Of a stretch of 64,000 nt of DNA, positions 6,045 to 9,000 are shown one piece after another. The DNA is from Siniperca chuatsi (taxonomy: Eukaryota; Chordata; Actinopteri; Centrarchiformes; Sinipercidae): the NCBI RefSeq assembly GCF_020085105.1, contig NC_058056.1:13514929-13578928 (forward strand). Direction: 5' to 3'. The notes below the pieces were generated by a model that saw only the letters and a program-made list of their open reading frames with translations, was not told the DNA's origin and searched no databases. Position 1 is the first letter of the stretch. Each line of letters opens with the position of its first letter. Both the position numbers and the translations under genes were made by a program.

Positions 6045-9000
6045 TTAAGTATCACACACTGGCCCCGGCAGATCGGCCCCCGTGGTTTGTGAACTGGCTC
6101 CAAACATGTACATCTGGTCCTCATCTGCAAAAGCAGCAGCAGCAGAGGGTTCAAAAAGTGTGACTTTACAGAAAAAGTTTTTTTCTCAAGTTCCTGCTTT
6201 CGCAGGAAGCTTTCCTCACTCACCAGTGACGCAGGCAGTAAAGTCAGCCCCACATGCCACCGATCGGCCCCCGTGGTTTGTGAATCCGCCTTCACTTCCT
6301 CCTCCATCCCCGGGCATACGATCAGAGTGATGATTTCCGTTACTGTCACATCCTGCTTCCCGTAGCGTTGAACGACTGATTGCTGCCCAGAGCCGTTCAT
6401 TCTCCTTCTGCTGCTCATCGACCTAGAGAAAGCAGGAATACATGCTGTTACTCATGCACAAGGACCAAAATCAGCACTGAGGCAGGCAGGTGGTTTTTGG
6501 GAAAAATGTCTCACCTGCTTCTCGAGCATCTTGATCCTCATCTCTTGATGAGCGACTGTCTCTCGCAGCTGCAAAATAAGCTCTTCTGTCAAATATTGTG
6601 GCAGTGGAATATACTGATAAGATTAGATAGATTTTTGCACTGTTGAGTGTGCAGATTTGATACCTGTGTAATCTTGGTACTTGCTTTGCAGCATGTGCCC
6701 AATTCTCCTTTTCTGCAGACATCAGCCTCCTCCAGTCCATTGACTTTATCACAGCTCATTCGTTTAGTCTGTGGAAAATTGAGTGGACATAGCGGATGCA
6801 GTATTACACAGTATGAACAGCAGTATTTGGAGTATATAATTCATGTTCAGATTAGTGCAAAGGACAGCTCTTTTGGCATTACCGATAGGCCTTTCTTACA
6901 GCTGACTGCTGCTGCCGCTGCCTTTAGCTCTTTCAGCTCCTCATAAGGTAGAGTGACGCTCTCTGAGATGGAAGAGAGCTGGTCAGGAGTGGGTAGCTTA
7001 GAGTTTTCTGGAATTGGGATGTACTCTGCATCCTCAAGCTCCTGTTGGATGAGAAATTCCCTGAATTAGAACACTTTGATTCTCCATTCAGATGTTTCTG
7101 ACTTATGATTCAAACAAAGGCTTCCTTATTCCTTGGTGCTTTCATGGTAACAAACCTTTCTAAGCCAGAGAGGGCAGGAGCTGTCTCCAGTCTGATTTGC
7201 CAATGACATCATCGGGGTCTCCATCAGACACTCCTCCGTATTATCCTCCAGTGTACCCCCAAGACCTCTGTCACGACACTCCGTCTCTGAACCAGGTTCT
7301 ATGTCCAGATCCACTGTGGATGTAGATGCCTCCTGGCCCAGTCCTATATATATATATATATATATATATATATATATATATATATATATATATATATATA
7401 TATATATATATATATATATATATATATATATATATATATATATATATATACACACACACACACACACACACACACAATGAACAATGTAGACTTGTACGTA
7501 TACATGTAGACTTATTCTTCAAGCAAAGAAAATGAATCAATACACAAATCAGTGACTGAAGAAAAGTATTTACCACTAGCAACTGATAGTCCACTGCTGT
7601 TAGAGCGAATAGTCTTGGAGTTCAGCACTTTCTCTGCAAAGAAGAAAATGTATTAAACAGCTAGCTGCTTGCAGCAGTATTCTGTGTAGGTATCTGGTTG
7701 TGATTACTAACCCATTATGATAATGGTGTGCCAGCCACGGCAAGAGAGGTCCGGTACATGGTGGAGGGAACCAAAGATGGGCCTTGGCATGGCAGGGCAA
7801 ACCTCTGAACCAAATCCCTTATCAGCAGGCATCCCAAGTCGCCCATTTCCTGCATTTCCCCATGCAAATATCTGACTGTCTGCAGGAAACAAAAACAGAT
7901 GATGGTATATCCTCAGGACTCAAAGTCTGGGGCTGTGGCTTCTAGGAAGAAATAAAACTACCACAAACCTTGCCATAAAATAAGAAAAGTATACATATTG
8001 CCATAAATGCACCACAGGACTGTACATGTTCTTACCCTCAGTGGCTGCAATGGTGAAGCCATCTCCACAAGACACTTTGGTCACTATCTTCCCTCCAAAG
8101 GGTCCGACAAGGACTTGGACGCCCTGGTGTTTCTTAAAGTCCTTCACACCCTGCTGTCCGTATTTGTTGCAACCAAAGGTGATCAAACGACCACGTTCTG
8201 CGAAGCCAGAAATCATATGAAATAACGTTTCTATGAAATGGTGAATTTTTGCTTAAAAGAGCCTCTTTTTGTAGTACCATCAATGGCAGCTGTGTGGGTT
8301 TTCCCTGGAGCTATGGCCTGTATCTTGAATCGCGACAGCTGCTTTGCTAAGGTCAGTGTGGTGATGTAAGGGATCCCCTGGTAACCCTGGTGTGGTGTAC
8401 AGGGAAAAAAACATATAAACATAGCTGCATCACCTAAAGTCTCTATTATTACTATCCTTTAAGTATAACCTAGTACCTCTCCAGGGTGGTTTTTGAGACC
8501 AGAGATTCCCTGGTTCAGACCAAGTTTATTGAATTCATTGTTTCCACACGCTAGGACTTTGCCAGCTTCTGTCAAGAAGAAGGTTCCATCACTGCCACAT
8601 GACACTGAGGAGATGGTGGCTCCTTTAGGGATCTCCACCTGGGAAAACCAGAAAACAGAAAGTACTTTTGAAATAAATAGCTACAAATAAGAATATTTGT
8701 GAAAGAATATTTGAAATTTTGTGAAAAAAGAAAACCCCTCTTTGAACAGAAATGGTGGTCTGAGATTCAACCTGCCAACAATCTATCACAGTGTATTATC
8801 ACCATCGTCAAGCCAATCATATGCTAAACAGGTACTTAACAGTGATGAGGGAGGTGCAGCCAGAAAACAATAGGCTTGATTACTGGGCCATCATGGAAAC
8901 AAAAGAAGGTCAGTTTCAGGTGAAACTAGGCAGGGTAAACAGCAGAAACTCAGGTAGACTCCTTCCTGAGGGCAGGGCTTAAGTAACACAAAGTAGCTTA

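Follow-up and report, generated by a model that had tools for sequence, protein, structure and literature searches.

The NEK9 Gene and Its Surroundings

The window (the whole 64-kb stretch of Siniperca chuatsi DNA that was analyzed) includes a NEK9 gene on its minus strand, with 23 coding exons running from 13191 to 6045 and encoding kinase plus RCC1 domains. Twenty-one of the exons were modelled jointly; exon 21 (6768-6664) was placed by eye, and the last exon was added. The joined model translates without an internal stop, the kinase exon at 11880-11810 being free of a frameshift, and its 22 introns are 78-733 nt long. Exon 11 ends at 9731, intron 11 (89 nt) occupies 9730-9642, and exon 12 starts at 9641; intron 11 is spliced in relatives, whose proteins read through its position. 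At intron 18, a (TA)53 tract (7345-7450) abuts the acceptor, and a pyrimidine tract is absent from the region 7344-7450.

A search of solved structures matched only kinase and RCC1-type relatives; for this and for the first protein search, the query was without exon 21. The set of relatives used below (n = 141) combines the best 120 of 4202 with a further 21 not already included, out of the best 120 of 132; the database has one representative per 90% cluster and may therefore conceal a record from this species or a sister species. In the first 760 residues, the 50 relatives compared are 86-95% identical. In a tree of 50 of the 141 proteins plus the one from the window, some of the models being fragmentary, the latter groups with Antennarius, Takifugu, Sparus, and Mola (support 0.946).

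Elsewhere in the window there are large, recent direct duplications within 22010-34078: 22236-25281 versus 30019-33080 at 98.2%, and 30019-30966 versus 33134-34078 at 99.7%. Near these, 18207-18410 weakly matches a C-type lectin domain; 15205-15852, considered as lectin-like, has no Pfam match.

A Copied Intron in the Last Exon

Within the last NEK9 exon, 162 bp (6100-6261) are a copy, in the same orientation, of 152 bp at 9617-9768 (blastn E 3.7e-46 and 87.3% identity with gaps counted, within the window). The parental stretch is the only match to the copy in the 64 kb, and the two are ~3.5 kb apart, start to start. The features are as follows:

6045..6422, minus strand: exon 23, the final coding exon of NEK9, as far as the stop of the spliced reading (acceptor at 6423; translation)
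6262..6284, minus strand: first 23-bp direct repeat (upstream in the gene), TTCACAAACCACGGGGGCCGATC on the coding strand, 100% identical to 6071-6093
6224..6261, minus strand: copied exon 11 end, coding VACGADFTACVT..., aligned to 9731-9768 with two differences
6125..6223, minus strand: copied intron 11, 99 nt, with GTGAGT donor and TTTTGCAG acceptor, aligned to 9642-9730, site scores equal to the parent's
6100..6124, minus strand: copied exon 12 start (DEDQMYMFG), 25 of 25 bases identical to 9617-9641
6094..6099, minus strand: filler of six bases, AGCCAG, joining the copy to the second repeat; its template is in exon 12 at 9555-9560
6071..6093, minus strand: second 23-bp direct repeat, an exact match to 6262-6284
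9617..9768, minus strand: parental stretch, running from the end of exon 11 across intron 11 into the start of exon 12 (alignment to the copy)
9554..9565, minus strand: TTTGGAGCCAGT in exon 12, the second template, from which the filler derives (recurrence at the junction)
9774..9788, minus strand: 15-base patch lying shortly before the copied tract, partly matching the end of the target repeat (alignment); proposed priming site

The net insertion is 191 bp: 162 of copy, 6 of filler, and 23 of repeat. An earlier sequence-only reading had proposed a templated exon-intron-exon copy in this exon, in gene orientation, flanked by exact 23-bp repeats of the target and carrying an intact 99-bp intron, and the alignment bears out each of these points.

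With gaps allowed for, copy and parent differ by 5 mismatches over 149 aligned sites, a 13-bp indel, and a 3-bp indel (one CTG). Both differences in the copied exon 11 end are synonymous in the parental frame, and are too few for an argument from selection. The copied intron has 13 bases more than the parental one and one CTG unit fewer. The additional 13 bases are an inverted copy (TTCCTGC/GCAGGAA) lying between two AAAGC sequences; they may be a gain in the copy or a loss in the parent.

The divergence between copy and parent is 3.4% (5/149 sites). Fish substitution rates are a few 1e-9 per site and year, which would put the event at some million years ago, perhaps a few, with a wide margin. 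Exact identity of the two 23-bp repeats is compatible with such an age. The copy had been called young on account of its few differences. With 3.4% divergence and two indels, young would here mean perhaps a few million years and not a fresh polymorphism.

The Conserved Ending and Its Absence

Removing the copy, the filler, and one repeat (191 bp in all) restores the tail FTNHGGRSAGASV, which is the usual ending in spiny-rayed fishes (acanthomorphs). This empty-site version would have 962 aa, with the last exon reading ...GGFTNHGGRSAGASV before the stop. An ending of the H-G-x-R-S type is recognizable in 50 of the 141 relatives, extending to Polymixia, Lampris, and Centroberyx, and the exact end HG[GS]RSAGASV is present in 20; many of the other models have a different ending or are truncated. 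The last-exon peptide is matched by 105 of the 141, in 66 of them up to the C-terminus. No signature of the insertion was found in the last 120 aa of any of these 141 cluster representatives. The insertion is real and, on these comparisons, looks lineage-specific, and the protein end that it appears to have overwritten is one conserved in other spiny-rayed fishes.

The last 40 residues of the Conger protein (P0075) contain KGTQT, resembling the LC8-binding motif of human NEK9; the listed spiny-rayed fish tails are without it.

Junctions and Templates

The six filler bases, previously taken as mere filler, turn out to be templated. The sequence TTTGGAGCCAGT, which spans the end of the copy and the filler (6104-6093), has one further occurrence in the 64-kb window on either strand: it lies in exon 12 (9565-9554) and shares the strand of the copy. 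The filler bases are preceded by TTTGG at both sites, namely at the copy end (9617) and at 9565-9561 in exon 12. Because TTTGG recurs there, the junction can be read as a jump that skips 56 bp at a microhomology of 5 bp. Of 200000 random six-base fillers, 159 find a match behind a TTTGG within about 200 nt. The last base on the filler side, a T, is common to template and target, and microhomology at this last jump is at most 1 bp. With the filler templated and this T shared, every base of the insert has a plausible template.

The first junction lacks exact microhomology (0 bp), and five template bases (CGACA) are skipped. Partial matching is found instead: CACGGG--GGCCGATC, at the end of the target repeat, partly matches a parental patch, CACGGGAAGGCC-ATC (9788-9774), which lies five bases before the copied tract. 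Overlaps at the three jumps are then 0 bp exact with partial matching, 5 bp, and at most 1 bp. The patch match was noticed post hoc. Its score is 9.5, a value reached by 18 of 2027 exon 32-mers, all of which overlap the patch, and by none of the 1981 others. Over the whole gene, it is reached by 5 of 6691 windows on the minus strand (one cluster at 9880-9884, ~100 nt away) and by 0 of 6691 on the plus strand. A first null had given 18 of 2005 exon windows, all 18 being the patch itself, and 5 of 1360 gene windows. Base composition contributes to the match, since 382 of 20000 shuffled 23-mers match the patch equally well.

Splicing and the Protein End

Splice sites were scored with position weights derived from the 21 other introns of NEK9, a small matrix based on one gene. 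The copied donor (7.3) and acceptor (8.2) have the same scores as those of the parent. Between 6460 and 6000, the donor ranks first of 25 GT dinucleotides, with no other above 3.7, and the acceptor second of 33 AG dinucleotides, after the exon's own acceptor (11.6). Splicing of the copied intron is likely from its sequence, since its sites are the parental ones and the best internal sites of the exon. It would be expected in most transcripts, because all scored site positions match those of a constitutive intron.

Three protein ends can be compared by translation: the empty-site tail given above, a retained-intron tail (...GGRSVACGADFTACVTGE, 971 aa), and a spliced tail (...VACGADFTACVTDEDQMYMFGASSQTTGADLPGPVCDT, 995 aa, junction 6224/6124). 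The last two are as the sequence-only reading had them; both alter the end of the protein, and neither has the conserved one. Use of alternative acceptors at +5 (score 1.7, weak) or +11 (-3.0) would bring the tail FTNHGGRSAGASV back. Transcript decay would not be expected, as there is no junction downstream of any of these stops.

The second frame of the last exon (6029-6451, minus strand) is open for 140 codons, and the spliced copy ends in this frame. Four fish models (P0031, P0035, P0050, and P0069) end in the corresponding frame with ...SQ(T/S)..., perhaps a prediction artefact.

If the copied intron were instead retained, translation would stop at a TGA just inside it, and the protein would gain VACGADFTACVTGE (971 aa); this would be a replacement of the C-terminus and no intron gain. 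The frame is open to a stop within the last exon, with no downstream junction to trigger decay, and the donor end of the intron could hold a strong local hairpin, formed near the donor by the 13 additional bases (UUCCUGC-GAAA-GCAGGAA). The 64-nt donor end of the copy folds at -19.2 kcal/mol (z -2.9), with 0 of 200 shuffles as stable, versus -9.0 kcal/mol (z 0.4) for the parent; such a hairpin might hinder splicing. Against this, the copied intron folded in full is unremarkable (z -0.77; 41 of 200 shuffles reach its stability); its two splice sites and the greater part of its body are those of a constitutive intron; and 99 nt is a normal length for this gene. Retention seems rather unlikely to us.

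In the parent, the loop of a hairpin of 7 bp, UGUCACU-GGUG-AGUGACA (9738-9721), contains the donor; this hairpin is weakened by differences in the copy (6231-6214).

A Possible Course of Events

We consider it probable that the insertion arose in an ancestor by a single repair or replication accident with serial template switches, and that the copied intron is spliced in most transcripts. A piece of NEK9 of ~150 bp, from 3.5 kb upstream, would have been copied into the last exon in the following way. An exposed target end, TTCACAAACCACGGGGGCCGATC, would pair imperfectly with exon 11 just ahead of the copied tract; synthesis would run through the end of exon 11 and intron 11 into the start of exon 12, then jump 56 bp forward at TTTGG and copy AGCCAG(T). 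Return to the target 23 bases before the departure point would leave the 23-bp repeat. Synthesis at a staggered double-strand break and template switching at a replication fork (MMBIR/FoSTeS) would give the same product. The spliced 995-aa protein would lose AGASV, and gain an RCC1-derived stretch and a frame-shifted tail. A more specific version is offered tentatively, and is doubtful as a whole: that the intron was propagated within its gene by template switching primed at the partly matching site, and is now spliced, with acceptors at 0, +5, and +11 choosing between the frame-shifted and the conserved C-terminus.

The direct repeats at both ends are also the mark of the model proposed for Daphnia (excerpts of PMC4202315 and PMC3443670), in which a staggered double-strand break is filled in and a free fragment captured by end joining; here a later internal deletion at TTTGG would be needed as well. 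In Daphnia, however, the repeats are 4-12 bp (excerpts of PMC4202315), versus 23 in NEK9. Capture of a free fragment would also leave unexplained why the target end matches bases shortly before the copied tract, and the templated filler would require a second event. This course of events is unlikely.

The template may also have been RNA: an unspliced transcript of NEK9 whose cDNA served to patch the break. The sequence-only reading had concluded from the accompanying intron that templating was at the DNA level. The templating itself is supported; the intron on its own does not prove that the template was DNA, since a pre-mRNA still to be spliced would do equally well. The copy has the orientation of the gene, and RNA-derived templated insertions are described from human cells in the excerpted part of PMC5110952. 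Neither end carries a poly(A), and TTTT/A is missing from the edges of the repeats, which counts against LINE-1 but leaves RNA patches of other kinds unaffected. DNA synthesis fits the 5-bp jump and the nearness of the template equally well or better. We regard an RNA template as distinctly improbable here. An assembly or sequencing artefact is very improbable even with a single assembly examined, as an echo of misassembly would be identical to its source, and 5 of 149 sites and two indels separate this copy from its parent.

Reverse splicing, by which an intron would be transposed alone, was considered as well, and was rejected because 38 and 25 exonic bases accompany the intron. For an introner or a transposon, related copies would be expected at several sites; within the 64-kb window the parental stretch is the one match.

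Comparison with Known Routes of Intron Gain

Intron gains are very rare in vertebrates, according to excerpts of PMC3151243 and PMC2746811. Internal gene duplication multiplies existing introns, as in Arabidopsis TOUCH3 (Gao & Lynch 2009, cited in PMC4974935), and whole-intron copying through internal tandem duplication is counted in the available part of PMC4974935 as multiplication of an existing intron. In NEK9, too, a whole intron with flanking exon pieces was copied inside one gene, which for those duplications took place at the DNA level. In contrast to the tandem or segmental duplications described there, the NEK9 copy sits in the interior of another exon at a distance of 3.5 kb, accompanied by a target repeat of 23 bp and a templated filler; tandem internal duplication was rejected for this locus because the copies are ~3.5 kb apart and not head to tail. 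The vertebrate ATP2A1 gene underwent a tandem exonic duplication with AGGT sites (Hellsten et al. 2011, cited in PMC4974935). There a duplicated sequence supplies an intron (excerpts of PMC4974935), as it probably does here; the source is exonic in ATP2A1, whereas in NEK9 an old intron was copied.

The Daphnia neointrons, gained in double-strand break repair with repeats of 4-12 bp, likewise are insertions in coding exons flanked by direct repeats of the target (excerpts of PMC4202315 and PMC3443670). Of the marks by which intron gain at staggered breaks is judged, two are present in NEK9: direct target repeats at both ends (23 bp, exact), and absence from related genes (0 of 141 representatives). 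The third, removal of the inserted stretch by splicing, is predicted from the site scores. Unlike the neointrons as they appear in those excerpts, the NEK9 insert came from an intron that the gene already had, with splice sites in place, and its repeats are 23 bp long. Templated sequence insertion polymorphisms, in the excerpted part of PMC5110952, are of two classes, one with a target repeat, poly(A), and a LINE-1 site, the other without a target repeat. They share with NEK9 a short, distant template at a new site and microhomology at a junction, and differ from it in that the NEK9 insertion has a repeat without LINE-1 marks and a template from the same gene. Class 1 was rejected here for want of a poly(A) tail and a TTTT/A target, and class 2 because of the 23-bp repeat.

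In the open-licence literature we found no paper on intron gain in NEK9, and, surveying it mostly by listing, no dispersed intron copy with exon edges, a 23-bp target repeat, and a templated filler. Serial copying of near templates joined at microhomology (MMBIR/FoSTeS) is known mainly from disease and cancer rearrangements; the NEK9 event resembles it in its serial use of near templates, and differs in that an intron would be moved into an exon. Known gene-internal intron duplications are mainly tandem, and the NEK9 event is a dispersed variant of these. Age usually obscures the routes of intron gain. In NEK9 the source, the target, the two repeats, and the two templates are still legible base by base, and the route of an intron to a new position in an exon is therefore testable; a conserved protein end would also be replaceable in one step while both readings stay open.
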